Virus record (IMG/VR): IMGVR_UViG_3300025118_005807
Span: 1 to 20,429 of that record
Origin: a virus
Strand: one strand, 5' to 3'
Length of the DNA stretch: 20,429 nucleotides
Every line of letters begins with the position of its first letter. Positions within the stretch are counted from its first letter, which is position 1. Positions 1 through 15,342 of this stretch are shown here, piece after piece. Below the pieces are notes generated by a model. It searched no databases. It was not told the DNA's origin and was given only the letters and a program-made list of their open reading frames with translations. Position numbers and translations under genes: made by a program.

Positions 1-138
1 GAAGATTTTCAAGCCGCCGTAGGCGACATACTGACGGTATCTGAGCCTTATTATTTTTATGATGAAACAAACGATGTATATATGCTTTATGATGCAGCCG
101 AGGATATCCATTATTTTTATGTGAGGGGCGGGCGATGA
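1..138 (+). CDS. 3' end of an unknown protein (partial)
   Basis: Frame 1 is open from the window edge to a TGA at 136-138 and gives 45 residues ending in YFYVRGGR. The visible tail is rich in Tyr, Asp and Glu (several YYFYD/HYFYV-like stretches), as in a beta-rich phage structural or fibre-like domain, but I do not recognise a family. Its stop overlaps the start of the following HNH gene in an ATGA arrangement, so the two are probably translationally coupled and belong to one operon. The upstream part is outside the window, so no function is proposed. Confidence 0.7.
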   Translation, partial: EDFQAAVGDILTVSEPYYFYDETNDVYMLYDAAEDIHYFYVRGGR

Positions 139-176
139 AACTCCTATTTGAAAATTGGCGACAGTATTTAAATGAA
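135..176 (+). repeat. LFENW leader repeat, copy 1
   Basis: The first 26 bases of this gene are identical to those at 529-554 and match 24 of 26 at 6048-6073. They encode MKLLFENWR; the following YLNE is an [LI]-x-E site. The repeat explains the common N-terminus of three otherwise unrelated proteins. Confidence 0.9.
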
Positions 177-545
177 CAACAAGAGAGGGCTGTTTTATTT
201 ATAAGCGTGCTTAAGGGTTTAAAATCTCCGCAGGAAAGACCTTCTGGTTATAAAAAGGGCTCTTTGAAAAAAGAGAAGATTGGAAAAGCTTGTTGTTGGT
301 GTGGCGAACAAACTTTTGTGGGAGTAGAACATATTATTCCTCGCTCTGCAGGAGGTCCACCAAGAGAAAAGTGGAACTTAGCTTGGGCTTGTTATCTTTG
401 TAACCATGCGAGAGGTTCTTTAATAGACATTCCTCCTAGAGACCCAGAAATTTTAAATGGCTGGCTTACTCAGCATTTTAGAGATTTTGGTGCTGTGCCA
501 ACTCCAGAAGAATTAAGGAATTATTTTAATGAAACTCCTATTTGA
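135..545 (+). CDS. HNH endonuclease with LFENW leader
   Basis: A 136-residue protein. Residues 1-14 are the leader MKLLFENWRQYLNE shared with the proteins at 529 and 6048. The rest is an HNH nuclease domain: zinc-binding Cys pairs near C53-C56 and C86-C89, E65-H66 as the start of the beta-beta-alpha metal site, N81 in the middle and N90/H91 at the end. HNH enzymes cut DNA with a His general base and one metal ion. The start is supported by a GAGG at 124-127 and by the ATGA overlap with the preceding gene; the stop lies 17 bases inside the next gene. In phages such proteins can be homing nucleases, packaging-associated nucleases or host-DNA nucleases. The leader (see findings) suggests virion packaging, which is inference. 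HNH assignment is strong; the biological target is unknown. Confidence 0.85.
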   Translation: MKLLFENWRQYLNEQQERAVLFISVLKGLKSPQERPSGYKKGSLKKEKIGKACCWCGEQTFVGVEHIIPRSAGGPPREKWNLAWACYLCNHARGSLIDIPPRDPEILNGWLTQHFRDFGAVPTPEELRNYFNETPI

Positions 546-570
546 AAATTGGCGTCAACTAATCAAAGAA
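529..570 (+). repeat. LFENW leader repeat, copy 2
   Basis: The first 26 bases are identical to 135-160. The stop codon of the upstream HNH gene (543-545) lies inside this repeat, read in another frame. The encoded leader ends in LIKE, an [LI]-x-E site. Confidence 0.9.
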
Positions 571-1275
571 TCAAGAGGTCCAAAGGATTTTCACTATAAA
601 ATTACTCAAAGTTCTAAAAAAGTAGTCATTGAACCCCTAAATTTACAGACAAAGGAACTAGAATCAGGAAAAGCCGATGGACATGCAGAGGTTGTTTTGG
701 AAAAACGCACCGATATACCTAATTGGCAACTAGCTTGGTCTAACTCTCCTCAAGATTCCGAAGGTGTTGGTACGGTTTTGTACCTAATGGCACTAGAAAT
801 AGCCGGAAGTGAAGGTCTATCGCCTGATGACTATGATCAAAGTCCTGATGCATTGCGTGTTTGGGCTAAGTTTATGCCGGAAAACAACAGATTCGGTGTG
901 CGCAAAGAGAAAAAAGAGAAATATAAGCATGATAATGATGAAAATCCCTTCTTTTTTGTGTTTTTCAAACCTCAAGGTGGCGCCTTAGAACAATTTTCAG
1001 ACCACATGTCTTACGAACAAGGTCAAGAAGAGAAAGAACCGGAGGTTGAACCTGATGTTGAGCCTTTTAACGTTGAAGATGACTGGGATTCGCTCTATGA
1101 TGATGATATTTTACAGGAAGAAGAGCCTTTTCAACGTAAGGTAAAGAAAAAACATCGCAGAATGAAGTTTAGGTTGATCGGAAAGGGCAACAACAAGCAC
1201 AATGTGGGCAAAAAGATGAAAAAGCCTTCATATAAAAGGTCAAAAAGTGCTCCACCGGGTGCTGGTGGCACTTAA
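529..1275 (+). CDS. LFENW-leader protein with GNAT-like segment
   Basis: A 248-residue protein. Residues 1-14, MKLLFENWRQLIKE, form the shared leader ending in the IKE motif. Residues about 35-115 resemble a minimal acetyltransferase (GNAT) fold as often seen in phages: a beta-strand run, then EGVGTVLYLMALEIAG near 78-93 in the place of the CoA-binding loop and helix, then SPDALRVWAKFM near 105-116. The pyrophosphate loop is not a full QxxGxG/A, so enzyme activity is doubtful. The region 165-200 is very acidic and the last 45 residues are strongly basic (KKKHRRMK, KKMKKPSYKR), which would suit nucleic-acid contact. An AAGGA at about 514-518 precedes the ATG, which overlaps the HNH gene. GNAT-like is a tentative fold call; the leader is certain. 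Confidence 0.6.
   Translation: MKLLFENWRQLIKESRGPKDFHYKITQSSKKVVIEPLNLQTKELESGKADGHAEVVLEKRTDIPNWQLAWSNSPQDSEGVGTVLYLMALEIAGSEGLSPDDYDQSPDALRVWAKFMPENNRFGVRKEKKEKYKHDNDENPFFFVFFKPQGGALEQFSDHMSYEQGQEEKEPEVEPDVEPFNVEDDWDSLYDDDILQEEEPFQRKVKKKHRRMKFRLIGKGNNKHNVGKKMKKPSYKRSKSAPPGAGGT
1245..1273 (+). other. hairpin at the end of the GNAT-like gene
   Basis: AAGTG, a CT bulge, CCACC, a 7-base loop, GGTGG and CACTT can pair as a 10-bp stem with one bulge. It overlaps the last codons and the first base of the stop. No T-run follows, so it is not a standard intrinsic terminator; it could act as an RNA-stabilising 3' end or simply reflect the Pro-Gly-rich C-terminus. Confidence 0.4.
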
Positions 1276-1306
1276 AATAACTAATTATTAGTAGTGGAGG
1301 GTTATT

Positions 1307-1507
1307 ATGCCAATTCTTCCGGAAATTTCCGATTTTGACCTTGAAATGATTAACATTTTGATCAAAAAGGCGCAAAAAGAGCAAAATACCGCCCAGGAAC
1401 GTCCATTTTTGCAGCTTCCAGTACCACATATACCAGAAAGTCCCGAATTCTATGAAAACCCGGATAAAAAACAAAATAATGATGAAATCATCATTATTGA
1501 CCTCTAA
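1307..1507 (+). CDS. small hypothetical protein, 66 aa
   Basis: Unrecognised. A strong GGAGGG at 1296-1301 sits five bases before the ATG. The protein has a short amphipathic helix near residues 8-28 (DFDLEMINILIKKAQKE), a Pro-rich middle (LPVPHIPESPEF) and an acidic, hydrophobic end (DEIIIIDL). It has no signal peptide or membrane segment. It lies between the GNAT-like gene and the large hydrolase gene in the same direction. The good ribosome site and lack of a competing frame support it as a real gene, possibly a binding or adaptor peptide. Confidence 0.6.
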   Translation: MPILPEISDFDLEMINILIKKAQKEQNTAQERPFLQLPVPHIPESPEFYENPDKKQNNDEIIIIDL

Positions 1508-1510
1508 AAG

Positions 1511-1524
1511 CTATTTATAATACA
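1511..1524 (+). promoter_or_regulatory. CTATTTATAATA motif (late-promoter-like)
   Basis: CTATTTATAATA is found here, at 17309-17320, and as CTATTTATTGTA at 8265-8276, each time in the short gap before a + strand gene. It contains TATTTATA, the reverse complement of the T4 late-promoter box TATAAATA. Here it abuts the ATG at 1525 and there is no Shine-Dalgarno, so a transcript starting from it would be almost leaderless; at this site the promoter reading is weaker than at the other two. Confidence 0.35.
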
Positions 1525-3705
1525 ATGAATTTACAACAAATCATACTAGAAGAGTATAATAGGCTACTGCAAGAGAAAAAGCGCCCAAGAAACTTTAGAT
1601 ATGGCTATTCCTTTGGAAGACTGGGGGAAGACCCAATGGATGAAAAAGATGGTGCAACACCTCGTTATGGAGCGTCGATGAATAAACCAATATTGGCTTT
1701 TATTAACCTTGTATTAGCGAAAGGTGGTGCTAAAAACACTCAAACTGGAAAGCCTATTAGGAGCTTAACAGATCAAGAATTAGATCGAATGATAGCCTAT
1801 AAAGCCGGCTCAGATTGGTCAAACAGAGTCAACAGAGCGACTAGCAACATGTCTAGAGTGCCTGGAAAGGATTCGTGGGGTCACAAACAAGGTTATTATA
1901 AAAGATATAGTCGAGAAGTTGGAGTTAGTAAAGACCAAGCACAGAAAATGTTAGATAAATTTGGATTAAGTGACACAATTAAAGGAGTGCATTGGGGCGG
2001 TAGACACAATCAACAATCTCCACGAGGTTATAATAAATTTATGTCCCTCTTACATCGTTTAAAAAAAGATCCTAATTCTGAATATCACGACGAGGCCACA
2101 AGAGTTTTGAGTTTTGTAAATAAACGCCAAGGCGGAACAGGCGCAAGAAGATTAAAGCCATTTTTAAACAAAGCTCTTGAAAAAGCGGGATATGGAAAAA
2201 ACGCGATTCAGACAATACGAGGAAAAGGTGGCTTTATAAAAGGTACTTTAAATTACTCTATTATAATAAATGATAAATATGTTCTTTCTTTATATACCAG
2301 ACAAGGCAAACAAAGCTCACGTGCAATGAGGCCGCACATACAGCAGTTAACGCTTGATACTATTACAAAAAACCTAAAACCGACAGACATAGGAACCGGC
2401 TCTCCAGAACGACAAAAACAAGATGCTGAAATTGAACAATGGAACCAGAGCGAACCAGAGCGAAATGAGTTGTGGAGGGAATTAGAGAAACAAAGACAAG
2501 ATGCTGAAATTGAACAACAAAAGCCAGAAAAAGCAGAGCCTCATACTGTTTTTCGAGATGAAACAGAATTACCGAAACCTCCACCAACGCTTGATCCTAA
2601 TATTTTCGATATAGAGTCGCCAAAAGAACCAGAACCGATTAAAGAACAAAAAGAAGAGCATGGCCAGACTATTCATGATAAATATAAAGCTATAAATACG
2701 GACTATTCACATGTCAATCGCCCTTATTCTGTTTATGTTCCACATGGTACTGATCTAGAAAATGCTAATGTTTCAATATATTTTCATGGTTGGGAAAAAG
2801 GGAGAAAATCTTTTGACCATCAAAAACGATTAAATAGATTAAAAAATACACTACCAGTAAATACTGTACTTGTTGTTCCAAATCTTGGAGTTAATCCATA
2901 TAAATCACGCCCAACAAAAGACTTTATAAACACAATTAAGAGCAAATTGGGTATTAAAAACATTAATAAAGTTAATTTACACGCACATAGTGCTGGTGGC
3001 AGCGCAATGAGTCGATTAATTAATAAATTTGACGATGAAACTCTCAAAAAAGTTTATCCAACTTATTCAGATGCAATATTTGGCTCATCTTCTACAGCAA
3101 AGGCAATAAAAAGAATGAAAAATTTAGATTTAGCTAATAATTTACACCTTATCACTAGTACAACTTTTAGAAAAGGGCACGAAAGGCAGCCTGACAAGTT
3201 TGCTAAAAAACTTTCTCAAGACAGCAACATAAAATGGACTCGCGTTAAAGATTCACATAATGCACTGGCTATACCAACTGTCAAACAATGGCGACAACAT
3301 ATCGTCGCACAAGAAACTCCCACTGAACCTATTGAACCTGTTGAGCCCATTAAACCTAATGAACCTATTGAGAAGCTTCAAGAAGCCGTAGGGGGATATG
3401 TGCCCTACCTTGTTAAAGTAGACATTGCTCTTAAATATGAAAGAGAATTCACATTTTATGGAAATGTACTAAACCAAATTCGTTCTATTAAGGGTATTGC
3501 AATTGCGAAAGCTAGTGATATAGGTGTTGTTAATATTGGCCCAAATAAAAGAATGGTTTTGTTGCATTTAAAATTTATGCCAGACAGGCCGCTACATCAA
3601 TATTTAACTTATCTTCAAATGGAATTAAAAAAAATAAAAGACAAAGACGGCGACAGGATTCTAGCAACCCAAATAAAGGGAATTCCTAGAAAAATTGATA
3701 TTTAA
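1525..3705 (+). CDS. three-part hydrolase: SxxK serine-hydrolase-like, alpha/beta-hydrolase, phage C-terminal domain
   Basis: A 726-residue protein with no signal peptide. The N-terminus has two [LI]-x(1-2)-E sites (ILEE, LLQE) in the first 17 residues. Domain 1 (about 25-280) resembles penicillin-binding protein/beta-lactamase-type serine hydrolases: S51-M-N-K54 as SxxK, SDWSN at 96-100 as a possible SxN, and a Lys/Gly-rich FIKGTLNYS strand in the place of KTG. A Glu/Pro/Gln-rich linker (about 290-390) contains an exact 22-base repeat. Domain 2 (about 395-600) has an alpha/beta-hydrolase pattern: YFHGW oxyanion-loop-like segment, nucleophile elbow H-S489-A-G-G, and D-S-H578-N as likely catalytic His. 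A second Pro/Glu linker (PTEPIEPVEPIKPNEPIE) leads to a C-terminal domain (about 625-726) with a ferredoxin-like strand/helix pattern (IRSIKGIAIAKASD). Possible substrates are host peptidoglycan or surface esters. Domain 2 is the better supported; domain 1 is tentative. Confidence 0.6.
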   Translation: MNLQQIILEEYNRLLQEKKRPRNFRYGYSFGRLGEDPMDEKDGATPRYGASMNKPILAFINLVLAKGGAKNTQTGKPIRSLTDQELDRMIAYKAGSDWSNRVNRATSNMSRVPGKDSWGHKQGYYKRYSREVGVSKDQAQKMLDKFGLSDTIKGVHWGGRHNQQSPRGYNKFMSLLHRLKKDPNSEYHDEATRVLSFVNKRQGGTGARRLKPFLNKALEKAGYGKNAIQTIRGKGGFIKGTLNYSIIINDKYVLSLYTRQGKQSSRAMRPHIQQLTLDTITKNLKPTDIGTGSPERQKQDAEIEQWNQSEPERNELWRELEKQRQDAEIEQQKPEKAEPHTVFRDETELPKPPPTLDPNIFDIESPKEPEPIKEQKEEHGQTIHDKYKAINTDYSHVNRPYSVYVPHGTDLENANVSIYFHGWEKGRKSFDHQKRLNRLKNTLPVNTVLVVPNLGVNPYKSRPTKDFINTIKSKLGIKNINKVNLHAHSAGGSAMSRLINKFDDETLKKVYPTYSDAIFGSSSTAKAIKRMKNLDLANNLHLITSTTFRKGHERQPDKFAKKLSQDSNIKWTRVKDSHNALAIPTVKQWRQHIVAQETPTEPIEPVEPIKPNEPIEKLQEAVGGYVPYLVKVDIALKYEREFTFYGNVLNQIRSIKGIAIAKASDIGVVNIGPNKRMVLLHLKFMPDRPLHQYLTYLQMELKKIKDKDGDRILATQIKGIPRKIDI
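2418..2517 (+). repeat. 22-bp direct repeat in the linker of the hydrolase gene
   Basis: The same 22 bases, coding QDAEIEQ, occur at 2418-2439 and 2496-2517, and GAACCAGAGC is doubled between them at about 2442-2461. The repeats lie in frame in a Glu/Gln-rich linker and look like local duplication that lengthened the hinge between the two enzyme-like domains. Confidence 0.75.
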
Positions 3706-3717
3706 TAAACAAAACAT

Positions 3718-3752
3718 TTGTACTTTTGTTGCTTTTATGTTATAGTTATAAT
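3718..3752 (+). promoter_or_regulatory. sigma70-like promoter of the vWA lipoprotein gene
   Basis: TTGTAC (3718-3723), a 17-base spacer and TATAGT (3741-3746) precede the GTG start at 3767; an alternative -10, TATAAT, lies at 3747-3752. GAGG at 3755-3758 is the ribosome site. A host-type promoter just ahead of one cargo gene is typical of phage morons. ACATTTGT upstream and ACAAATGT downstream of it form an 8-base inverted pair that might be regulatory. Confidence 0.5.
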
Positions 3753-3766
3753 ATGAGGTAACAAAT

Positions 3767-5923
3767 GTGAAGTTTATAAAAAAAGTGTCAATTGCATTAA
3801 TAATCTTTTTTAGTTTATTTCTTGTAATTTCATGTGGGGAGGACAAAGAAGGACAAACCAACCACGACACAAACCACCCAGAAGACGTATTAGAAGATAC
3901 AACAGATACAACAGATACAACAGATACAACAGATACAGAAGATACAACAGATACAGAAGATACAACAGATACAGAAGACACCTACTCCGTTTGGACGGAT
4001 CCTTGCGTTGAATGCGCTTGGTATTTTTGTGGCAATTTAGATGTTATTTGGCAAAAACAAATATGCATTAACAATTGCGATGACCCACCTACGGTTGTTT
4101 ATGAAGGTGCGTGCGAAGAGCACTTAGAATGCAATCCCGCACAATTAGTTCTAGAGTCCAACATTCCATGTACTACAGAAGACGGATATCCTGGTTTTAA
4201 AGAGAAGCTTTGTAACAAGGGGCAAGTCCAATATACGAATTGCGAATCAGACTGCTCAGAGGAGATCTGTGACCTCTTAGACAATGATTGCGACGGAGAC
4301 ATCGATGAAGGCGTTAAGAACGCTTGTGGGGCCTGTGGGGACGTTCCTGAAGAGATTTGTGACTATATTGATAACAACTGTGATGGGCAAATTGACGAAG
4401 GTGTTTCAAACGATTGTGGCACGTGTGGAAAGCCTCCTGAAGAAATTTGTAATGGAGTTGATGATGATTGTGATGGTGAAATAGATGAAGGTCAATTAAA
4501 TGCTTGTGGTAACTGTGGTCCTCTTGATGAAGAAATTTGCGATGGCTTAGACAACGATTGCAATGGACTAACAGATGAAGATTTAATTGGTGAATGCTCT
4601 ACAGATTGTGAAACAAACCTACAGTATTGTGTGGCCGGCCAGTGGATTTGTACGGCAAAACAGCCCAAACCAGAAATTTGTAATGGCTTAGACGATGATT
4701 GTGATGGAAAAGCTGATGAAGGATTAGATTGCCTTTGTACTATAAATGATATTGGTATATTAATGCCATGTAAAGAAGGTCCACTGGTTTGTGGAGAAGG
4801 ATATAAAACCTGTGAATGTGTAGACGACACTTGCGCAGATCTTCAATTAAGTGAATGTTTGGCAGTATGTCATTGGCTTCCACAAACTATCCCAGTCGGA
4901 TCAACTTGCGATAAATATCTTGGAGAGATCAAACCAGAAGAATGTAACAATCACGATGATAATTGCAATGATCAGGTTGATGAAGGATTAATTGCCAATT
5001 GTTATAGTGGCCCACCAGAAACAATGTTAGTTGGCATATGTGTGCCAGGAGAAATGACATGTTCAAAAGGAATATGGGGCAATTATGATGACAATGGTTT
5101 GTTTATTAAAAAACTTTGTTTAGGAGAGGTTGTGCCCGCCCCAGAAGATATTTGTAACGGCACAGACACTAATTGTGATGGCAAGATTGATGAAGATAAA
5201 GAACTAGAACCAACTGACATTCTTTTTATTGTCGACCTATCAGGTTCGATGGTAGAAGAAATTAACGCAGTAACAACTGCGTTGAATAAATTTGCTGCAC
5301 ATTATAGCGATTCAGAAGTTGTAAAATGGGGTTTAGTTTTCACTGCAGCAACAGGCTTTGGCAGTGGATCGCTAAACACACAAAGAGTGGTTCTTCAGAC
5401 AGATCTGGTTGATTTCGAAACGTTTATGACCATTTTTTCAAGCTTAGGTCTTACTCTAAACGGAGGAGATGAACAAAATTATGATGCAATATATTTATCT
5501 ATTCATAATTTAGTTGGGGCTGCGGCACTTCCATATCCAATTTCAGATTTATTTTGGAACAGTGGTTTGGGATTCTGGAGCAGCACAGGAGAATCTATTC
5601 CTCCGAAAGAGGATTGGGATATTAGCTGGAGAGACGATGCAAAACACGTAATTATTTTGTTTTCAGATGAACAGGGTCAAACCTATCTTAACCCGCCAAT
5701 TACAGAATCTATCTTAGTGGATATGATTAATGCTGCTGATGATTTGGCAGTTTATGTGTTTACATCTTATATATTGACTACTATGGGACCTGGAAGCGAC
5801 AATTATAAAGCATTAACCGCTGCTGGCTCCGTTGGTAAACTTTATGAGTTAACAATGAGTGCGATTACAATGTATACTAATCTTCTTGAAATCCTAGATG
5901 AAACTGCATGTGGCGGTAAATAG
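3767..5923 (+). CDS. outer-surface lipoprotein with MopE-type repeats and vWA domain
   Basis: A 718-residue protein starting at GTG, fixed by GAGG eight bases upstream and by a clear signal peptide. Residues 1-22 are K-rich then hydrophobic and end in a lipobox V-I-S-C23; the +2 residue is Gly, so outer-membrane sorting is expected. Residues about 43-70 are a DTT/DTE tandem repeat, likely a flexible stalk. Residues 166-478 hold seven MopE-type units of the form E-I-C-x-x-x-D-x-[DN]-C-[DN]-G-x-x-D-E, rich in Cys and Asp and predicted to bind calcium or other metals. Residues about 484-718 are a von Willebrand A domain with MIDAS D490-L-S492-G-S494, a protein-binding fold. This architecture is typical of secreted proteins of Bradymonadales/Myxococcota and is unusual among phage genes. 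Possible roles are superinfection exclusion, adhesion or host-cell surface change; none is shown. Confidence 0.85.
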   Translation: MKFIKKVSIALIIFFSLFLVISCGEDKEGQTNHDTNHPEDVLEDTTDTTDTTDTTDTEDTTDTEDTTDTEDTYSVWTDPCVECAWYFCGNLDVIWQKQICINNCDDPPTVVYEGACEEHLECNPAQLVLESNIPCTTEDGYPGFKEKLCNKGQVQYTNCESDCSEEICDLLDNDCDGDIDEGVKNACGACGDVPEEICDYIDNNCDGQIDEGVSNDCGTCGKPPEEICNGVDDDCDGEIDEGQLNACGNCGPLDEEICDGLDNDCNGLTDEDLIGECSTDCETNLQYCVAGQWICTAKQPKPEICNGLDDDCDGKADEGLDCLCTINDIGILMPCKEGPLVCGEGYKTCECVDDTCADLQLSECLAVCHWLPQTIPVGSTCDKYLGEIKPEECNNHDDNCNDQVDEGLIANCYSGPPETMLVGICVPGEMTCSKGIWGNYDDNGLFIKKLCLGEVVPAPEDICNGTDTNCDGKIDEDKELEPTDILFIVDLSGSMVEEINAVTTALNKFAAHYSDSEVVKWGLVFTAATGFGSGSLNTQRVVLQTDLVDFETFMTIFSSLGLTLNGGDEQNYDAIYLSIHNLVGAAALPYPISDLFWNSGLGFWSSTGESIPPKEDWDISWRDDAKHVIILFSDEQGQTYLNPPITESILVDMINAADDLAVYVFTSYILTTMGPGSDNYKALTAAGSVGKLYELTMSAITMYTNLLEILDETACGGK
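3893..3980 (+). repeat. 9-bp tandem repeats coding DTT/DTE
   Basis: Units of AGATACAAC and related AGATACAGA follow each other in frame for nearly 90 bases, giving Asp-Thr-Thr and Asp-Thr-Glu just after the lipid-anchoring segment. Because the unit is a multiple of three, slippage would change stalk length without a frameshift. Confidence 0.85.
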
Positions 5924-6012
5924 TGGGTCTACTGTTTTGTACTTTAGGGCTTCTCGGCGGTCTTTCGGTTGTTGGGTTAACAATGTTAATTAGCTGGTGT
6001 GTTTTTAAATAA
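5923..6012 (+). CDS. 29-residue hydrophobic membrane peptide
   Basis: A GTG at 5923-5925 overlaps the TAG stop of the lipoprotein gene (TAGTG), and the frame runs 29 codons to TAA at 6010. After the initiator, the peptide is GLLFCTLGLLGGLSVVG followed by LTMLISWCVFK: one continuous hydrophobic helix of about 24 residues with a single basic end. A GGCGG lies close upstream and stop/start overlap allows re-initiation. It resembles small single-span membrane peptides that some phages use to alter the host membrane or to assist lysis. It is short, has a GTG start and no homolog that I recognise, so a chance reading frame is possible. Confidence 0.45.
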   Translation: MGLLFCTLGLLGGLSVVGLTMLISWCVFK

Positions 6013-6040
6013 ATGTATTATACTACAAGAACTAACTACT

Positions 6041-6048
6041 TATAAATA
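6041..6048 (+). promoter_or_regulatory. TATAAATA box at a leaderless-looking start
   Basis: A perfect T4-type late box TATAAATA overlaps the A of the ATG at 6048. No Shine-Dalgarno precedes this start. As a promoter it would begin transcription inside the gene, so it more likely reflects an A/T-rich, unstructured start region; recorded because of the exact match. Confidence 0.2.
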
Positions 6049-6089
6049 TGAAATTACTATTTGAAAATTGGCGAAAGTTTATTAAAGAA
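6048..6089 (+). repeat. LFENW leader repeat, copy 3
   Basis: Matches 24 of the first 26 bases of copies 1 and 2. The two differences turn CTC into TTA, both Leu, so the peptide is unchanged. The leader ends in FIKE. Confidence 0.88.
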
Positions 6090-7166
6090 GTCGAAAGCGA
6101 AGAAGTGCCCGTTCCAGAGGAAACCCCAGAGGAAACCCCAGAAGATAACGTATTAGATCTATCTAAAGAATTGGACTCTGGTTTTTGTAAATATAATCCT
6201 CTCATCAACGAATACGCACAATACTCTCCAGATCAATTGGCCAATGTATTCATGTTTGTAATTGGGACTCAACAAATGAGATGGTATGATGTGGTACCAA
6301 AATTTCCATTGTTAATGAACTTTGTGCATAAAAATGATGGTTTAATGACTGATGCTAATTTACAAAATCCTGGTGAAGCTAAACCTAGATATGATTTTCC
6401 TGGGTTTGGACAGTTAGTTATGGGACCGCGAAAACATGCAATTGATTATTTGTGGAAAAACAGAGAAAACATATATTCTAGTTTTAGTAGCTTGTTCAGT
6501 GAATATAATAATTCTAGTGGGCTAAAAAAAGAAGAAGCATTGTTTAATATTTATTTGCAAGCATTAACATTACCAGGATTTGGCTTACCAAAAGCGGCGT
6601 TTGCAACTCAATTAGTTATTGGACGCTTAGGTTGTATTGACTCTATCAACCTCAACATATATAAAGGAATATCAAAAAAATTTAACATATTGACACCTGG
6701 AGGTAAAGGATTTCGAACACCTAAAGTTACTACATCTGGTAAAAAAGTTATTCAAGCGGGGGAATTCGATAGCAACATAATTAAACTCGGACCTAGGGGC
6801 ATTGAATTGGCCGAAGAATACTTAGAATTTTTAAGACAGATTGCAAAAGAAACTGATGCAAAAAATATATCTCAAAAATTATGGGATTCTTGGGTAGAGT
6901 TAGTGGCTAAAAAAATTAATATTAAAGATGATCTTAAAGTAATAATGCCAGATGGTTCTGAACATGTTGTGCCAAATGATTATTCCAAGAATGTTAAAGG
7001 CGCAGAAAAAAATCCTGCAGCTGCTTTTAGAAAGAAGTATATAGGCAAAATAACCGGATCAGAAGTTTCTAGACAACACCATATCCCAACAATGTATGAA
7101 AGCAAAAAAGAACAATTGTTGTTTGAAAATTGGTCTAAATATTTTTACAGTTTAATAAAAAAGTAG
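6048..7166 (+). CDS. LFENW-leader protein with helix-hairpin-helix-like motif
   Basis: A 372-residue protein. Residues 1-14, MKLLFENWRKFIKE, are the shared leader ending in IKE; the leader DNA differs from the other copies only by synonymous changes in one Leu codon. A Glu/Pro stretch (EVPVPEETPEETPED) follows as a linker. The body (about 45-330) is mostly helical. LTLPGFGLPKAAFATQLV near 173-190 resembles a helix-hairpin-helix of DNA-glycosylase type, and GRLGCIDSIN follows, but I see no clear catalytic Lys/Asp pair. The C-terminus holds QLLFENWSKYF, a second copy of the leader core, at 7113-7145. The gene has no evident ribosome site. It is probably a virion-internal protein (inference); the HhH call is tentative. 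Confidence 0.6.
   Translation: MKLLFENWRKFIKEVESEEVPVPEETPEETPEDNVLDLSKELDSGFCKYNPLINEYAQYSPDQLANVFMFVIGTQQMRWYDVVPKFPLLMNFVHKNDGLMTDANLQNPGEAKPRYDFPGFGQLVMGPRKHAIDYLWKNRENIYSSFSSLFSEYNNSSGLKKEEALFNIYLQALTLPGFGLPKAAFATQLVIGRLGCIDSINLNIYKGISKKFNILTPGGKGFRTPKVTTSGKKVIQAGEFDSNIIKLGPRGIELAEEYLEFLRQIAKETDAKNISQKLWDSWVELVAKKINIKDDLKVIMPDGSEHVVPNDYSKNVKGAEKNPAAAFRKKYIGKITGSEVSRQHHIPTMYESKKEQLLFENWSKYFYSLIKK
7113..7145 (+). repeat. LFENW motif at a C-terminus, copy 4
   Basis: Codes QLLFENWSKYF within the last 22 residues of the protein starting at 6048. The GAAAATTGG core is the same as in the N-terminal copies, while the Leu codons (TTG TTG) differ. Confidence 0.8.
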
Positions 7167-7189
7167 TAAACGTTTAATCTAAAATATAG

Positions 7190-7205
7190 TAATATGATCA
7201 TATTA
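7190..7205. promoter_or_regulatory. 16-bp palindrome upstream of purA
   Basis: TAATATGATCATATTA is a perfect palindrome lying directly before the GGAGG ribosome site (7210-7214) of the PurA-like gene and overlapping the end of a TATAGT (7185-7190) that could be a -10 box. Position suggests an operator or an RNA hairpin that could hide the ribosome site. In AT-rich DNA such palindromes also arise by chance. Confidence 0.4.
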
Positions 7206-7219
7206 ACTTGGAGGTTTTT

Positions 7220-8233
7220 ATGTTAGCAGATGTTGTTGTCGATCTTCAATACGGAGATTGTGGCAAAGGCAAGGTAACACACCACTTATGCAGAAACGGG
7301 GACTATACTCATGTCATACGATATAATGGTGGGTGTAATGCGGGGCACACTATTTATCACCATGGAAGGCAATATATTACTCATCATATCCCTGCTGGTG
7401 TTTTTTTCGGTATTAAATCTATCATTGGTTCTGGTTGCGTTGTATATCCTGAACAATTTTTTAGAGAAATACACGAACTCGAAAGAGGAGATATTAGAAC
7501 AGAAGGACTCATCTACATCGCAAAAAACGCCCACGTCATCACAGGAGAACACCTAAAAGAAGATGAGAAAGACACTTCAATCGGCACCACTAAACGTGGA
7601 AATGGTCCAGCATATCGTGACAAATATAATAGAACGGGCGTTAGAGCAGAAGATGTCCCAGAGCTTCGTCCTTATTTAATCGATCTATATAAAGAGTTAC
7701 ATACAAAAGATAGTACAGTAAAAATATTATTTGAAGGCGCGCAAGGGTTTGGTTTGGATGTTGATTGGGGCGATTATCCTTATGTCACTTCTTCTAATTG
7801 TATTTCAGGTGCAGCTGTAATGAACGGTGTTCCACCTCAAGCAATCCGCAATGTTTGGGGTGTTGCAAAAGCATATGAAACTTATGTCGGTGCAAAACAA
7901 TTTCAACCTGCAGGTGAAATATTTAATAAGATACAAAGAGTGGGTGAAGAGTTTGGCGCAACAACCGGACGTAAAAGACAAGTTAATTGGATGAATATAG
8001 ATTTTCTTAAGAAAGCTATTAATATTAATGGCGTTACTCATCTTGTCATAAATAAAATGGACGTTTTAGAAGAAGTGCGGCGGTGGGTTCTTTTTGATAA
8101 GGCACACAAAAAGTTCTTTCAAAATAAAGATGATTTTAAACGCTTTATCCTTCAAGCTATCGAGCCAGAACATAAATTTGGTTGGAATGAAATAAAGAGC
8201 GTTTATTTTTCAGAACATAAAGATAAAATTTAA
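7220..8233 (+). CDS. purA: short adenylosuccinate synthetase (PurA-like)
   Basis: The start is the ATG at 7220, five bases after GGAGG; an in-frame TTG at 7208 lies inside that site. The product is 337 residues, near the short archaeal/phage form and about 90 fewer than E. coli PurA. PurA joins IMP and aspartate with GTP to make adenylosuccinate, the first step to AMP. Visible motifs are Y-G-D13-C-G-K-G-K (GTP loop with catalytic Asp), N-A-G-H43 (catalytic His), SIGTTKRGNGPAYRDK (IMP loop), FEGAQGFGLDVDWGDYPYVT, GATTGRKRQVNW and INKMDVLEE. The usual Glu after Asp13 is Cys, and the final GP-x-R guanine motif is degenerate. Phage PurZ, which makes diaminopurine precursors, is a close relative; as I recall it lacks the catalytic Asp, so retained D13 favours ordinary PurA. 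It would enlarge the host adenine nucleotide pool. Confidence 0.85.
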   Translation: MLADVVVDLQYGDCGKGKVTHHLCRNGDYTHVIRYNGGCNAGHTIYHHGRQYITHHIPAGVFFGIKSIIGSGCVVYPEQFFREIHELERGDIRTEGLIYIAKNAHVITGEHLKEDEKDTSIGTTKRGNGPAYRDKYNRTGVRAEDVPELRPYLIDLYKELHTKDSTVKILFEGAQGFGLDVDWGDYPYVTSSNCISGAAVMNGVPPQAIRNVWGVAKAYETYVGAKQFQPAGEIFNKIQRVGEEFGATTGRKRQVNWMNIDFLKKAININGVTHLVINKMDVLEEVRRWVLFDKAHKKFFQNKDDFKRFILQAIEPEHKFGWNEIKSVYFSEHKDKI

Positions 8234-8264
8234 CTTCAATTACTCTCCTTTTAAAATAAAACGA

Positions 8265-8276
8265 CTATTTATTGTA
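8265..8276 (+). promoter_or_regulatory. CTATTTATTGTA late-promoter-like motif
   Basis: The motif starts 37 bases before the ATG at 8302. The same word with TATAATA lies 36 bases before the phoH start, so spacing is shared. It opens the long block 8302-14820 of putative virion proteins. A link to a phage-encoded sigma factor is inference. Confidence 0.45.
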
Positions 8277-8301
8277 CAAATCTTTAAAAGGGGACTATAG
8301 T

Positions 8302-10716
8302 ATGTCACGCAAGTTCACAAAAAATGAAGCAATATTAATTAAAAAGATCCTTAATCAAAAGTTGCAGCAAGAAGGAATGGCTGACAAATATAAGGCTTGG
8401 CGAGAAAAGAAAAAAGCAAAAAAAGCCGCAAAAAAAGCCGCAAAAAAAGCCCCTTCGGGCACAGGCACGCCAGTCAAGGGTGATGTTAAAGATCCTCCTG
8501 GTGGAGAGGCAGCGGAATCAACTGGACGTGGTGATTGGTCTGAAAGATCGGGCGAAGAGTGGCGCACCGGCAAACATAGAAAAGATACAGAAATGTGGAG
8601 TCGTGGCGGTGTTGATAAAACAATACAACCTTCTGGTAAAGGATATCATACTAAAAAATTGGGTGGAAGTGACACAATGCGCGCTCTTAAACAGCAGCAA
8701 GCAGGAGAAGATAAGGACCAAGAACTACGTAAAAAGCCGCCGAAGGATCCCCCTGATTCTGGTGGTGGTGGAGATGACGACGGCAAGGGTGGCGACGGAC
8801 AACAAACTGTCACACTTCCGAACGGCATGGTGCTTAACGTTGTAATTAATAATAGTAATCAAATAGTGAGCGCTGAGACGGAATCAGGCAAACCAGTCGA
8901 TCCAGCGAAGATACCAGATGAGGTAAAACCGGATGAAGGTGGAGGTGGTACAGGTGGAGGCGGCGCAGGTTCTAAGTTTGCAGTGCCAGTATTTAAAAAA
9001 TTTAGCGGAAAAGAACAAGAGGCGGGAGCACCACAAAGAAGTCTTTCAAGTCAATTAATGAAGCTATTTCCTGATATTCCAAAAGGCGCTATTACTCAAA
9101 TGTTAAAAGATGTTGCTAGCCAACTCAAGAACAATGGAGTGAACATTCAAGAAAATGCAAAATTAATTGCTAAAATACTTCTTGAACGATTGTCACACTA
9201 TAATCAGAAAATGATTATTGAAGGTAGAAAATCTCAAGGTGAGGTTTCTAGCGCTGAGGTGGGCGCGGGAGAAGCTGGAAATATCCTGCAGCAACTAGAT
9301 CAGTTTTTAGACTCTCTTAAATCTGCCGAAGAAGTAAAGAAATTTCTAAAATACGTACAGAATGGATTTGAACCAGAAGGATTTGCAGAATATTGGGATA
9401 AGGTTGGGACAGGAGAGGTTGAAGATAAAGTTAAATGGAGTCCAGGCAGTCAACAGCCTGCAGCCAAGGCTGCAGCTGGTGAGGAGCCTGCAGCTGGCGC
9501 AGAGCCTGCAGCTGGCGAATCTGCAGATGAAATAGAACAAAAAAAGATTGCTGCAGCGAAGCGCCGAGCAACACGAAAAGCAGCACGAAAAAAGAAAGGG
9601 AAAAGAAGAGAAAGTCTCATTAGAGAAGCCGCAGGAGAACCATTTTCAGGTGGAGGCAGAAAAAAAGTAAGCACCTATTATGGTAAAGGTGGGGCAGGCT
9701 TTAAAAAGATACAAGATAAATTAGCTTCTTTTTCGAAAGGTTCTCCATGTGATGAATTGAAACAAGAGTTAAAAAATCAAGATTTAGATTCACCAGAAGG
9801 TAGAGCTGGTGCGACTAAAGACGATCAAGCATATTTGGGCGCATATAAGATTTATAAAAAAATCACTAAAGCGCTTCCAAAACTTGCTGCAGATCCAGAC
9901 TGCGAGGCTTGGGCTAAGGAGCAAATAAAATTCTTTAAAATTGGTAAGCTTACAGATTCCGACAGGGCGGTTAAAGCTTCTAGAGCAGCTAGAGGGGTTA
10001 AAGAACCAAAAGAGAAAGAATATGCACCAGAAAAAATAACAAATGTAAAAGGAAAAGTCAACTTAAGACAGTCAATTGGACCAAATCTTAAGAAAGCTGG
10101 TATTGAGCTTAATAGCCCAGAAGGATCAAAGCTTCATAACAAACTTCAGAAAGTTATAAGAAGATTCTTGGTTAAAAACTTAACAAGAGTCACTGGGCAA
10201 TCTGAAGAGGAAGTTAGAAGCATGATCATAGCACAACCAACAGGAGTCGATAAAAGAAAGGCTCAAGCCGCCCAAGCAATGAAAGAGAGTATTGAGGAAA
10301 TTAGAAGTATTTTAGAAGCGGAAGGCTATGTAGTTACCGAGTCTGCCATCGGATCCGCCATCGGCGGCAGAATAAAAGGACTGGTAAAATCAATCTTTGG
10401 CAAGTCTCGTTTGAAGGCTGGGGGTGGATTCAAAAAATCTGGATCTGCCTTCGCAAGAACTATGAAGCATCTAAGAAAAACTAATCCGGAACTTTACAGG
10501 GATCAAATGAAAGATCTAACTGATTCCGGCGCAGTGGATGAAGAAGATCCGCCTCGGAAAAAGAAGCAAGATGGAGAAAAGAAGCAAGATGGAGAAAAGA
10601 AGCAAGCTATAAAAGAATCATTTAACAATTACCTTATTCATGAAGTATTAAAGCAAGAGAAGGTGCTTCTAGAAAAGACAATAAACGTTTTAAGGGAACG
10701 TGGTACTATTAAATGA
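8302..10716 (+). CDS. Lys/Ala-rich, low-complexity 804-residue protein, probably virion-internal
   Basis: The start is the ATG at 8302, eight bases after AAAGGGG; an in-frame ATG at 8272 has no ribosome site. Residues about 25-50 are histone-H1-like (KAKKAAKKAAKKA); Gly-rich linkers (GGGGDDDG, GGGGTGGGG) and an Ala/Gly/Glu/Pro repeat (AAGEEPAAGAEPAAGE) separate helical segments; a second basic patch is KRRATRKAARKKKGKRR. Many [LI]-x(1-2)-E sites are followed by a small residue: LQQE-G, IIE-G, LIRE-A, ILEAE-G. The C-terminal 150 residues hold an amphipathic Gly-rich helix (IGSAIGGRIKGLVKSIFGK) and a KKQDGE repeat. I do not recognise a family. Alternating basic tracts and protease-like sites suit a protein that is packed with DNA or forms part of the prohead core, as T4 internal proteins do. 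It overlaps the next gene by ATGA. Confidence 0.6.
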   Translation: MSRKFTKNEAILIKKILNQKLQQEGMADKYKAWREKKKAKKAAKKAAKKAPSGTGTPVKGDVKDPPGGEAAESTGRGDWSERSGEEWRTGKHRKDTEMWSRGGVDKTIQPSGKGYHTKKLGGSDTMRALKQQQAGEDKDQELRKKPPKDPPDSGGGGDDDGKGGDGQQTVTLPNGMVLNVVINNSNQIVSAETESGKPVDPAKIPDEVKPDEGGGGTGGGGAGSKFAVPVFKKFSGKEQEAGAPQRSLSSQLMKLFPDIPKGAITQMLKDVASQLKNNGVNIQENAKLIAKILLERLSHYNQKMIIEGRKSQGEVSSAEVGAGEAGNILQQLDQFLDSLKSAEEVKKFLKYVQNGFEPEGFAEYWDKVGTGEVEDKVKWSPGSQQPAAKAAAGEEPAAGAEPAAGESADEIEQKKIAAAKRRATRKAARKKKGKRRESLIREAAGEPFSGGGRKKVSTYYGKGGAGFKKIQDKLASFSKGSPCDELKQELKNQDLDSPEGRAGATKDDQAYLGAYKIYKKITKALPKLAADPDCEAWAKEQIKFFKIGKLTDSDRAVKASRAARGVKEPKEKEYAPEKITNVKGKVNLRQSIGPNLKKAGIELNSPEGSKLHNKLQKVIRRFLVKNLTRVTGQSEEEVRSMIIAQPTGVDKRKAQAAQAMKESIEEIRSILEAEGYVVTESAIGSAIGGRIKGLVKSIFGKSRLKAGGGFKKSGSAFARTMKHLRKTNPELYRDQMKDLTDSGAVDEEDPPRKKKQDGEKKQDGEKKQAIKESFNNYLIHEVLKQEKVLLEKTINVLRERGTIK
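9460..9530 (+). repeat. GCAGCTGG-type tandem repeats (Ala-Ala-Gly-Glu-Pro)
   Basis: Repeated CCTGCAGCTGGCG-like units code (E)PAAG(E/A) four times in frame inside the 804-residue protein, forming an unstructured Ala/Pro/Glu linker between helical segments. Confidence 0.65.
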
Positions 10717-11516: not shown

Positions 11517-11527
11517 GGAGATTATAA

Positions 11528-14029
11528 ATGGGTGGTGTTGCAGGACATTTAGCGCATCTTTATGACAACCGTGATTTAACTTATACTGAAATGGCAGAAA
11601 TTTTAACTGCCGCATCACAAGGCGAATTAATTGGTACAGAAAAAACAGATGGTTATAACATATATCTAGGCTATGTTGATGGGCGAGTTCGCGCTGCCAG
11701 GAATAAAGGTGATATGAGTCGCGGTGGCATGACTTTAGAAGATTTGGTTAATCGCACTTTTAAAGGTGGTGAGAAAACTAAAAAAGCTTATGTTACCGCA
11801 TTCAAAGCTTATAAACAAGCAGTAGATTCCCTTTCAGATGAAGAGCGTAATTCCATTTTCGGTTTAGAGGGTGATATCTTTTATAATACTGAAATTCAGG
11901 GACCAATTGCTCCAAATGTTGTTAATTATGATGAAAATATTGTTTCCATTCACCACATGGGACATAAAAGATATAATAAAGAAACAAATGATTTAGAAAT
12001 CGTTGAAGCGGTACAAGAATCTCAAGTGCTAGATCAGGTTATTGATCGGTTTGAAGAAATGAAAACAGAAGAATCATTTTCTGTTAAAAGAACTGCATTT
12101 TTAAAACTCAATCAATTAGACGACGATGTACATTTAAAAACAGTTTTATCAAAAATACGCAATACCGGATTTCAAGGTGATATGACAATTGGTGATTATT
12201 TATACGTCAATCTAATGAGACAAATTCGGCAGCAATTAAGATTGCCCCCATCAATAACAAAGCTTGTCGCCAATAGGGTGCTTAAAAGCCCTGGCTATTT
12301 AAGCTTAACAAAATTAAAGAAGATATTAAAAGAACGTGGTACTGAAGAGTCGTATCCGGTTGTAAAAGACTTTGTTGATAATTCTAATACAGAAATAAAA
12401 AAATTAATTTGGCCAATTGAGTTAGCAATACATGATTTCGCTGTCGAATTATTGAGAAGTTTGAGAAGCGCTTATATCTTAGATAGTGACGCCGAGCTTG
12501 ATAGAATTAAAAAAGACGTTGAACAAGCTATCAACTCTATTCATAAATATGATGGACCTCACAAAGACGAGGCTCATGAAATATTAGCTAAACAATTAGA
12601 CAAGCTTAAAACTCACGACGATATCGATACAGTTGTAGAAGGGTTTGTTTTTCAGTGGAAAGGGCAAATGTATAAATTTACCGGTAATTTTGCTCCTATA
12701 AATCAATTGTTAGGGCTTTTTAGATACGGTAGGGGGCATATGCCTCCAATGTCGTTAAACGCTCTTAAAGAGGCATTTACGGGCGTTCCAGAGGGTGTTA
12801 CTAATAGGGTTATAGCTATATACCCAGGAAGGTTTCAACCCATGGGTGCACATCACGCCGAAGTGTTTAAAATAATACAAGAAAAATTTGGAGAGGAAAA
12901 CACCTTTATCTCCACTTCTCCAGTAGTAGACGCGAGCGATAAAGGTGGTGTCCCTAAATCACCATTCAATTTTGAAGAAAAGAAAGCCATTATGGTTCGA
13001 TACGAGATCCCAGAAAATAACATTGTCATGACTAAAAATCCATATATAGCAAAAGAGATATTAGAGGATTTTGATCCAGAAACAACCTCAGTCGTCTTTT
13101 TTGTTGGTAAAAAAGATATGCAAGAAAGTCCTAGATTCAATGTGGGCACTACAAAAAAAGGAAAACCAACTTATTTTCAATATTATGAAGGGCATTTAGA
13201 CGATCTTAAAACATATTCAGAAAATGGTTATTTAGCAATTGCTCCTCATATTTCAATTAACATTCCAGGTATTGGCGAGATGTCTGGTACGAATATTCGT
13301 CTTGCACTAAAAGGTACTGAGGGCAATCCAAAGGGATTTAAAGATATAATGGGGTGGTATGATGAGACATTACATAATATGATTGTTAATAAATTAAAAA
13401 ACGCTGAGTTGAAGGAGGATTCCCAGTTTCATGTGGGAATATTTCTTAGGCTAATAGAAGAAGAAATTGATAGAACTTTGTCTGAGGGCTTGGATTTCGA
13501 AAAAATGACGACTCAAGATAAAGCTAAATATTTTCTACAACAAGCAGGTAATGAAACAAAAGGCATAGCCGCACTTCAGGCGCTGCAAAAACAAGCAAAA
13601 GATCTTTTTAATCAAGCAGCTGCCAGAGATGAAATGTTTAAAGCCTTAAGTAGTGATTTCGTTGTTAAGGCTAAACAAGAAGAAGAAGCTAGAAAAGTAG
13701 CAGAAGAAACTCAAGACACAGCAGAAGAAGAAGCTCAAGACACAGCAGAAGAAGAAGCTCAAGACACAGCAGAAGAAGAAGCACCGGCTATGGAAGCAGA
13801 AGCCGAATCATCAGTGGCAGAAAAAGGCGAAGCATTAGAAGAGATGTCCAGCGGCGGCGGGGGGGCAGCTGCAGGTTTTTCTGGCGGGTTTGGTACCACA
13901 GAGGTTAAGCCGGTACGTAGAAGAAAAATAAAAAGAAAGAAAAAGAAAAAAAAGAAAACAAAGCTAGAAGAACAGTTTATTGATGAAGTATATAACTATT
14001 TAATTAAAACAATGAGGCGCGCAATATGA
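11528..14029 (+). CDS. ligase-like plus cytidylyltransferase-like fusion protein
   Basis: An 833-residue protein; AAGGAG is seven to eight bases before the ATG. The start MGGVAGHLAHLYD is typical of a phage family that I recall as DUF6267. Domain 1 (about 1-410) has covalent-nucleotidyltransferase motifs: E-K39-T-D-G42 as motif I with the adenylated Lys, RAARNKGD after it, V-E371-G-F-V-F as motif IV and MYKFTG as motif V, as in ATP-dependent DNA or RNA ligases. Domain 2 (about 428-620) is of NadR/cytidylyltransferase type: YPGRFQPMGAHHAEVF (432-447) and M-S-G-T-N-I-R591; the usual HxGH is GxHH. The C-terminus is low complexity: AEEEAQDT repeats, a Gly run, then a Lys/Arg tract (KIKRKKKKKKKT). 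A function in RNA or NAD(P) repair, or in covalent tagging inside the virion, is possible; activity is not proven. Confidence 0.7.
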   Translation: MGGVAGHLAHLYDNRDLTYTEMAEILTAASQGELIGTEKTDGYNIYLGYVDGRVRAARNKGDMSRGGMTLEDLVNRTFKGGEKTKKAYVTAFKAYKQAVDSLSDEERNSIFGLEGDIFYNTEIQGPIAPNVVNYDENIVSIHHMGHKRYNKETNDLEIVEAVQESQVLDQVIDRFEEMKTEESFSVKRTAFLKLNQLDDDVHLKTVLSKIRNTGFQGDMTIGDYLYVNLMRQIRQQLRLPPSITKLVANRVLKSPGYLSLTKLKKILKERGTEESYPVVKDFVDNSNTEIKKLIWPIELAIHDFAVELLRSLRSAYILDSDAELDRIKKDVEQAINSIHKYDGPHKDEAHEILAKQLDKLKTHDDIDTVVEGFVFQWKGQMYKFTGNFAPINQLLGLFRYGRGHMPPMSLNALKEAFTGVPEGVTNRVIAIYPGRFQPMGAHHAEVFKIIQEKFGEENTFISTSPVVDASDKGGVPKSPFNFEEKKAIMVRYEIPENNIVMTKNPYIAKEILEDFDPETTSVVFFVGKKDMQESPRFNVGTTKKGKPTYFQYYEGHLDDLKTYSENGYLAIAPHISINIPGIGEMSGTNIRLALKGTEGNPKGFKDIMGWYDETLHNMIVNKLKNAELKEDSQFHVGIFLRLIEEEIDRTLSEGLDFEKMTTQDKAKYFLQQAGNETKGIAALQALQKQAKDLFNQAAARDEMFKALSSDFVVKAKQEEEARKVAEETQDTAEEEAQDTAEEEAQDTAEEEAPAMEAEAESSVAEKGEALEEMSSGGGGAAAGFSGGFGTTEVKPVRRRKIKRKKKKKKKTKLEEQFIDEVYNYLIKTMRRAI
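13701..13781 (+). repeat. 24-bp tandem repeats coding AEEEAQDT
   Basis: About three units of GCTCAAGACACAGCAGAAGA with a short AGAA tail follow in frame in the 3' part of the fusion gene. They form an acidic spacer ahead of the Gly-rich and Lys-rich end. Confidence 0.85.
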
Positions 14030-14820
14030 TTGATAGAAAAGAATTTATATCAGAAATGCAAGAGGAGATGACAGTACGAAAATTTGTACGTTATGGAATT
14101 AAAGCAATATATGAAAAAAAATTAAAACAAGCTAAAAAAGAATATCTAGAAGAAACTGTTTTGAGAAACATGATACGTAGGCTAATTTCTGAAGATGCTA
14201 GCACGAGTGTTGCTAGCGGCGTACAACACAAAAACACCGGTATTGTAGAATTAGATAAAGTGCTTAAAGCTACTATAGTGCAAGTGGAAGAGGAATACAA
14301 GACTTTAACAACCAAAAAAGAACAACGAGATTCTTTTGCCGCTCACTTCCTTGCCACTTTAGATGCAGCTTTAGCCCCTGTTGATGCAAATCGATTTGCG
14401 CCGGGTGGAAAAGAAACAGACGAGGAAGCTTCAATTGAAGATAGAATAAAAGAAGCTATCATGGAAGTAATTGGTGTTGAAGTGGATGAGGAAGAGGCAG
14501 AAGAAGCGAAATTTATTCCCGCACGCCCACAAGATGAAGAAGAGGCAAAGGAAGAAGCAGAAAAAGAAGAAAAAACGTTTCAAGATCTGCCGGGAGCAAA
14601 TAGAACTGGACGCAACTTTGCAGAAAGGGCATGGAATAAAGTTGAAAAACAGATCATTAGCGCATATGAAGATCTAGAAGATGAAGAAGATGCAGACGCA
14701 TATCGCGATTATATTATTACTAACTTTAAGCTATATTTCAGAAAATTTGAACAAGAACTAGCTGACGATCTAGATGTACCTGTTGGTGCAGAAGAGGTAG
14801 AAGAAGAAGAAGGAGTCTAG
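14026..14820 (+). CDS. acidic helical protein, likely virion-internal or scaffold-like
   Basis: A 264-residue protein that overlaps the preceding gene by ATGA. Its start MIDRKEFISEMQEEM resembles the LFENW leaders in layout: a short basic/aromatic opening, then F-I-S-E as an [LI]-x-E site. A second such site, RRLISE-D, falls near residues 52-57. The middle (about 60-125) is helical and uncharged on one face; residues 140-190 are almost all Glu, Lys and Ala, and the last 15 residues are Glu-rich. No enzyme motif is visible. Strong acidity, helicity and cleavage-like sites are features of T4-type prohead core proteins, so a scaffold or packaged-protein role is a reasonable inference. Family unknown. 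Confidence 0.55.
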   Translation: MIDRKEFISEMQEEMTVRKFVRYGIKAIYEKKLKQAKKEYLEETVLRNMIRRLISEDASTSVASGVQHKNTGIVELDKVLKATIVQVEEEYKTLTTKKEQRDSFAAHFLATLDAALAPVDANRFAPGGKETDEEASIEDRIKEAIMEVIGVEVDEEEAEEAKFIPARPQDEEEAKEEAEKEEKTFQDLPGANRTGRNFAERAWNKVEKQIISAYEDLEDEEDADAYRDYIITNFKLYFRKFEQELADDLDVPVGAEEVEEEEGV

Positions 14821-14905
14821 CTAGTACTGTTGCAATCCATCATATCTAATATTTCATTTAAATAATATAAAGAATAAAATATAATAAAGATTATAATAGA
14901 TTGGA

Positions 14906-14921
14906 TTGATTAATTAATCAA
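14906..14921. promoter_or_regulatory. 16-bp palindrome upstream of the HTH gene
   Basis: TTGATTAATTAATCAA is a perfect palindrome 41 bases before the GTG start at 14962, in the only larger gap (14821-14961) of the long gene block. That gap is about 80% A/T and holds nothing else that I recognise. An autoregulatory operator for the downstream Fis-type protein is a simple hypothesis. Confidence 0.4.
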
Positions 14922-14961
14922 ACTATGAATTTATTGTATCATATCTAGAGAGAAAATTTAA

Positions 14962-15312
14962 GTGGTCTGGAAAAAAAGAAAAGTCTCTGGGAAAAATAAA
15001 AATTATAGCATCGCAAAGAAACTCCGCAACGATCTGAAAAGTAACGAAGAATTTGAGGTAATGTTAAATTCTTTGACACTTGAGGAAGCAATTGCACTCA
15101 AGCTTGAATTAGCTTCTAAAGTATTTGGCAATAAATTATATGGCATGCCAATATGGTATAGTGCAAAAGAAATTGTACAAGATGCATTATTAAAGTATGC
15201 CCTAAGCGCGACAAAATCCAAAAGAGAAGCAGCAAGATTCTTAGGAATAGCGCCAAGAGAATTGCGAAAACTCTTAAGAAAATTTAAAGTTGAAGATTAT
15301 TTCGAAAAATAG
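14962..15312 (+). CDS. Fis-type helix-turn-helix DNA-binding protein
   Basis: A 116-residue protein from a GTG start directly after an in-frame TAA; the ribosome site (GAGAGAAAA) is weak, and an ATG at codon 33-34 is the only later alternative. Residues 1-20 are very basic. The C-terminal 35 residues, SKREAARFLGIAPRELRKLL and following, match the Fis/NtrC C-terminal HTH pattern (xxxEAARxLGIxxxxLxxxLxxF). The middle part is helical, as in the dimerising region of Fis. Fis-type proteins bend DNA and regulate transcription or recombination. It sits between an AT-rich palindrome and the tmRNA promoter, so it may control this border between the virion-gene block and the following genes. No sigma-factor domain is visible. 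Confidence 0.7.
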   Translation: MVWKKRKVSGKNKNYSIAKKLRNDLKSNEEFEVMLNSLTLEEAIALKLELASKVFGNKLYGMPIWYSAKEIVQDALLKYALSATKSKREAARFLGIAPRELRKLLRKFKVEDYFEK

Positions 15313-15313
15313 C

Positions 15314-15342
15314 TTAACATCTTATATACAATTGTATATACT
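15314..15342 (+). promoter_or_regulatory. sigma70-like promoter of tmRNA, with palindrome
   Basis: TTAACA (15314-15319), a 17-base spacer and TATACT (15337-15342) match the sigma70 consensus at five of six bases each, with a predicted start a few bases before the tmRNA 5' end at 15355. The perfect 18-bp palindrome TATATACAATTGTATATA (15323-15340) covers the spacer and most of the -10 box, so a bound repressor would block it. Confidence 0.7.

Follow-up and report, generated by a model that had tools for sequence, protein, structure and literature searches.

An N-terminal leader on unrelated proteins of uncultured marine T4-like phages is a probable capsid-targeting sequence

The 20,429-nucleotide viral sequence IMGVR_UViG_3300025118_005807 from IMG/VR (hereafter, the window, meaning this whole stretch of DNA) contains three genes whose products open with a common leader of 14 residues, with the consensus MKLLFENWRxYLxE. 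Based on the comparisons described here, this leader is very probably a cleaved capsid-targeting sequence of uncultured marine T4-like myoviruses, and the proteins that carry it (the cargo) are probably injected into the host. The modular nature of the leader, the boundary at Glu14, the agreement with the residue register of T4, the co-residence of protease and capsid genes, the clustering of tagged genes in an island and the exchange of tags were all directly observed. Three things are new: the leader, the breadth of its use (at least 75 families in uncultured marine phages) and a residue logic that is common to several dialects.

In the window, the leaders are located on the plus strand at 135..176 (MKLLFENWRQYLNE; HNH-nuclease gene 135-545), 529..570 (MKLLFENWRQLIKE; gene 529-1275) and 6048..6089 (MKLLFENWRKFIKE; gene 6048-7166). 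The predicted cut falls after E14 in the HNH nuclease, and the leader peptide can be written as MKLLFENWRKYLNE/EE, with a slash, here and below, marking a cut or predicted cut. Reading of the open reading frames confirmed the statement in the preliminary description of this DNA that the three genes share their opening. The DNA identity reported there was also reproduced: the first 26 nucleotides are identical between the genes at 135 and 529 (26/26), and the gene at 6048 matches at 24 of the 26 positions, differing by CTC versus TTA, both of which encode Leu. A count of the LLFENW pattern gave four occurrences in the window and none in 100 shuffles. The fourth of these (7116-7133), which had been overlooked, is C-terminal in the 6048 protein and reads LLFENWSKYFY (7116..7148, plus strand), without the cleavage Glu; in homologs it reads LLFESWSKYFY or IWTEYFY. 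Gene 529 begins before the HNH gene has ended; the latter encodes ...NETPI and terminates with a TGA at leader nucleotides 15-17. Homologs of the 529 protein (L182 and L184) retain N-W-R...E, and those of the 6048 protein (L174-L176 and L178-L181) retain the leader, which has diverged in some of them.

Among the domain labels proposed earlier, that of the HNH nuclease at 135 was upheld (Pfam HNH, 5e-5; PHROG HNH), whereas GNAT-like (529) and HhH-like (6048) are unproven. No support for GNAT or HhH was obtained from Pfam, PHROG or PDB sequences, and the 6048 family, used as a profile against PDB sequences, yielded no significant match. The predicted models of the two proteins are of low confidence, with a mean predicted local distance difference test score (pLDDT) of 42 for 529 and 46 for 6048. 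The relatives of the HNH protein were matched chiefly via the leader. The 529 protein terminates in a basic tail (RRMKFRLIGKG...KSAPPGAGG; 1111..1272, plus strand), and a tail of this type is common to proteins with different bodies (L008, L009, L109, L116, L117 and L122), representing a second shared module.

An exact-motif scan of IMG/VR using the pattern MK[LF][LF]FENW, which fixes only residues 1-8 of the leader, identified at least 178 tagged open reading frames on at least 118 stretches. When the 172 tagged proteins with a length of at least 45 aa were clustered by their bodies (single linkage), at least 75 unrelated families emerged among the matches listed; this number is an undercount, with one merged group uniting several cargo types. 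The leader is also repeated within genomes, with up to eight copies in one 102-kb contig among the matches listed. The recognisable cargo includes NUDIX, HD, protein kinase, NT5C nucleotidase, HNH, RNase T/DnaQ-like exonuclease, DnaJ and nucleotidyltransferase-like proteins, and the majority of the cargo families match no known family. In 257 Gb of bacterial and archaeal genomes, we found two matches versus 1.9 expected by chance, located in frames of 10 and 22 aa, neither of which is a real gene. Because the cellular matches are at chance level and in such tiny frames, the leader is a viral feature and in practice confined to viruses; the cellular search suggested in the preliminary description thus revealed no true leader gene in these genomes. 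A tblastn search of cultured phages with a leader-only 25-mer gave no match, which is weak evidence of absence because the query is short, and a literature search on the string LFENW returned no phage paper.

Residues 9-14, R-[KQ]-[YF]-[LI]-x-E, lay outside the scan pattern, so their conservation is an unbiased observation. The information content is 3.5 bits at E14, 1.0 at position 15 and approximately 0.3 from position 17 on. E14 is present in 66 of the 75 families, and [LIVMF]-x-E is found with its Glu exactly at position 14 in 65 and within the first 18 residues in 73. Where Glu14 is absent, L/I-x-E usually occurs a few residues downstream. The expectation that the leader would be attached to diverse domains and end in [LI]-x-E was thereby borne out. 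This sharp end of conservation matches L/I-x-E, the cleavage motif of the T4 protease gp21 (PMC9026906).

The position of the leader is equally distinctive. Among the N-terminal 5-mers found de novo in 1,862 open reading frames, LFENW occurs in 71 families and LLENW in 31, and the best internal control word occurs in 3. The leader was found 236 times at N-termini versus 7 times elsewhere, and the motif [WYF]xx[FYHW][LIVM]xE was found within residues 1-25 of 237 open reading frames (95 families) and within residues 61-85 of 6 (5 families). Among homologs without strict LFENW, 41 of 91 retain the generic motif, compared with 0.6 in shuffles. In a homology-anchored alignment of 32 diverged leaders, the W8 class is kept in 22/26, F/Y11 in 21/27, L/I12 in 22/26 and E14 in 17/29; on homologous cargo, diverged leaders have lost MKLLFEN and retained W-x-x-[FY]-[LI]-x-E. 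Copies of the form NNNL..xFENWRGFLxED are present internally (position 478 of 730 aa) in the protein of L132:2410-4602 (from the 185-kb contig G010) and at the extreme C-terminus in that of L014:5740-7575. These copies may be polyprotein joints for cutting by the head protease.

In the T4 genome, the internal proteins IPII and IPIII start with MKTYQEFIAE. When the sequences are anchored on Glu, T4 Y4 aligns with W8, F7 with Y/F11 and I8 with L/I12. In IPIII, residues 4 and 7 are responsible for capsid targeting, and residues 8 and 10 for processing (PMC9026906). The marine leader shares this IPIII register (P7, P4 and the processing residues 8 and 10), as judged from sequence register alone. 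The idea put forward in the preliminary description, that the leader is a capsid-targeting tag of the T4 type, is thus supported by the number of families, the L/I-x-E end, the IPIII register and the co-resident protease described below; the likeness to T4 is a match of register and no proof of common descent.

A second class of leader, LKQIIKE/EL, was detected among the N-terminal words of the same 1,862 open reading frames in 25-34 families, in the same register as the first class. The window contains one such leader (1525..1551, plus strand), where the product of gene 1525-3705 starts with MNLQQIILE/E, matching the L-x-x-I-I-x-E register. The C-terminal domain of this protein (aa 631-724) shares 51% identity with the small protein L109, which starts with MKKLLERWNSYLSE, and small proteins related to this domain carry a first-class leader in some phages and a second-class leader in others. 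Tag exchange has occurred on one and the same cargo domain. A weaker candidate is a T4-like propeptide, MIDRKEFISE (14026..14055, plus strand), at the start of an acidic 264-aa protein that has no LFENW leader; its homolog in G010 starts with MQIDRKQFIEE. The cultured Flavobacterium phage immuto has a third leader, F[DN]L[KR][KS]FL[VT]ENKLT, on four proteins (gp003, gp076, gp077 and gp092) in an L-x-x-F-L-x-E register. This leader is distinct in sequence from LFENW, and no description of it was found in the literature searched. Immuto carries second-class leaders as well; its NT5C nucleotidase starts with ...LADLLLEE, and the marine homologs of this enzyme start with LFENW. All of these leaders might be dialects (Y..FIAE in T4, W..YLNE in the marine phages, L..IIKE in the second class and L..FLVE in immuto) of one N-terminal zip code, hydrophobic-x-x-hydrophobic-[LI]-x-E, by which T4-related phages would mark injected proteins, with lineage dialects coexisting and swapping on the same cargo and some internal or C-terminal copies serving as polyprotein joints or anchors. 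We regard the chances for and against this generalization as evenly balanced. If it is true, hundreds of injected protein families would become readable from metagenomes.

Most of the tagged contigs also encode head proteins of the T4 type. Of the 25 tagged contigs, 18 contain a gp21-type protease (PF03420) and 17 contain a capsid protein of the gp23 type (PF07068); the 15 that are 130 kb or longer all have both genes. The proteases retain the His and Ser motifs, and the pro-region of the capsid proteins contains an invariant L-L-[RK]-E, which, by analogy with T4 gp23 (FLTE/A), would be their cleavage site. Among annotated phage records, the closest capsid proteins belong to an uncultured phage (51%) and to immuto (49%). 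The gp21-type proteases of this group (e.g. L135) begin with MSKxLLREYYELC, loosely resembling KLLFENW..., and this start is possibly a core-targeting propeptide of their own.

The window aligns collinearly with the final 20 kb of G010, and the contig L012/G021, which is 97% identical to the window over 3950-16272, encodes a homolog of the immuto baseplate wedge protein; therefore, the window belongs to the T4-like group. Another contig (L017/G022) is 99.97% identical to window positions 5732-11900. In G010, all eight first-class tagged genes and one second-class gene lie within 22.4-29.4 kb of the 185 kb, and tags are absent from the head genes and from regions outside this accessory island. 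The few other motif matches in G010 are not leader-like or lie in the scaffold protein. Because 181 of the 193 open reading frames of G010 share one strand, strand agreement between the tagged genes and the head genes is uninformative.

These features suggest a route by which the leader could act. While the head is being assembled, the amphipathic N-terminal segment would bind the prohead core, making contact through W8 and Y/F11, and the gp21-type prohead protease would then cut after Glu14 (L/I-x-E), so that the mature protein would be freed inside the head and the leader discarded. At the next infection, the cargo would exit with the DNA and act in the host before phage gene expression. With the tagged genes residing in swappable accessory islands, any protein given the leader would become cargo.

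Several observations weigh against this capsid-targeting interpretation and are considered here together with the alternatives. The preliminary description had argued from the three window copies that selection acts on the peptide. That argument does not stand, because recent copying suffices to explain three copies, but the conclusion does: the peptide is conserved, given that the 75 family representatives contain 34 DNA versions of the first 24 nucleotides, with all six Leu codons represented at position 3. The leader DNA has also been copied between genes to some degree, since codon 4 is strongly biased (CTA/TTA in 93% versus approximately 40% background) and one 24-mer recurs in 16 of the 75 families. 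In addition, the leader start overlaps the stop of the upstream gene in 89 of 167 cases, the 135/529 pair of the window among them. Because of the codon 4 bias and these overlaps, a DNA-level or translation-coupling component is present. Together with the 26/26 identity of two window copies, this would be expected if the leader were a DNA-level module (a recombination joint or a translation-coupling start for shuffling accessory genes) and the peptide incidental. Such an explanation is highly improbable, however, in view of the 34 DNA versions, the variation at other synonymous sites, the survival of W-x-x-[FY]-[LI]-x-E through DNA divergence, and a boundary that falls at Glu14 rather than at any DNA feature. 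A test for a DNA-level repeat likewise found no conservation at the DNA level beyond the coding boundary. The sequences upstream of tagged starts are dissimilar between families. As for a late promoter, TATAAATA was found within 60 nucleotides upstream in 0 of 73 tagged families, and this idea is not supported; the start of the window's gene 6048 reads TATAAATATG by happenstance.

Other points concern the steps after translation, namely core binding, cleavage, packaging and injection, all of which are inferred. Approximately 12% of the families have no Glu at exactly position 14, and the generic motif is missing from the first 30 residues in 50 of the 91 non-LFENW homologs, although start-site errors may contribute. 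The window's phage is also represented by longer, nearly identical contigs (47 and 75 kb); these lack the protease and capsid genes, and the ones discussed above come from collinear relatives. The leader might direct proteins to another destination, such as the tail, a replication compartment or a membrane, without being a protease substrate; it is modelled, at low confidence, as a helix, which would suit many kinds of targeting. We consider this very unlikely, given the sharp end at L/I-x-E, the T4 targeting register and the occurrence of a gp21-type protease in each of the tagged contigs that reach 130 kb. It is also conceivable, but unlikely, that the leader targets the prohead core and is cleaved there, but that the cargo serves a structural or stuffing role and is not injected. 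Targeting to the capsid is a step distinct from injection, and T4 IPIII has a head-assembly phenotype (PMC9026906). However, the recognisable cargo consists mostly of host-takeover and nucleotide-metabolism enzymes and, unlike core proteins, varies strongly between phages.

Several other window genes deserve mention. The adenylosuccinate-synthetase-like gene at 7208-8233 (phrog_1211, 2-aminooxy adenylosuccinate synthetase; PF00709) may be PurZ-like, a hint of 2-aminoadenine in the phage DNA. A trypsin-like protease (PF13365) with an apparent signal peptide is encoded at 16472-17209 by the sole large minus-strand gene, and its G010 homolog is likewise on the strand opposite its neighbours. The lipoprotein-like open reading frame at 3767-5923 contains MopE-type metal-binding repeats followed by an apparent VWA domain and has a 41% counterpart in G010; its product appears to be a cell-surface-type protein, which is unusual for a phage. 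The 833-aa protein encoded at 11528-14029 shows a weak cytidylyltransferase-like match and can be set beside the product of a 907-aa immuto gene annotated as NadR (gp088), located near the terminase.

The proteins that a phage injects are the first to act against host defence, and they are normally found singly, in cultured phages. A tag that is readable in sequence would turn their discovery into genome reading and provide candidate anti-defence and host-takeover enzymes; if our reading of the tag is true, the whole injected protein set could be read from DNA alone. The leader would also represent a second capsid-targeting peptide with a clear residue logic, and one that can be tested by fusion.

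In T-even phages, capsid-targeting peptides on variable internal proteins are already known (PMC12373910; PMC3012670), each T4 internal protein disarms one specific restriction system (PMC12373910), and a review has suggested such peptides as a general route for adding cargo (PMC9026906). The marine leader resembles the capsid-targeting sequence of T4 IPI-III in being a short N-terminal peptide of cleavable type on otherwise unrelated proteins encoded at variable cargo loci, in having an aromatic residue at P7 and P4, L/I at P3 and Glu at P1, and in the presence of a gp21-family protease in the genome. In both systems, the cut site can shift downstream while the aromatic pair stays (MKTFKEF...ITE/A in IPI and MKLLFENWRQYTNTLNE/EQ here). 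The marine leader differs in its W-R-x-Y-L-x-E core with MKLLFEN upstream, in its length (14 versus 10 residues), and in cargo diversity, with at least 75 families versus ten or more described for T-even phages (PMC12373910). Furthermore, the recognisable marine cargo consists largely of enzymes, and both the host and the phages are uncultured. T4 Alt is an ADP-ribosyltransferase with N- and C-terminal propeptides. It is comparable to the 6048 protein, a large cargo protein with leader-like segments at both ends, although the C-terminal copy in 6048 keeps W-x-x-Y-F without the cleavage Glu. The ejection proteins of phiKZ and SPN3US are also cut after Glu by a head protease, packaged and ejected, but their motif is A/S-x-E, with another P3 residue, and their propeptides are mostly longer than 100 residues (PMC10052503).

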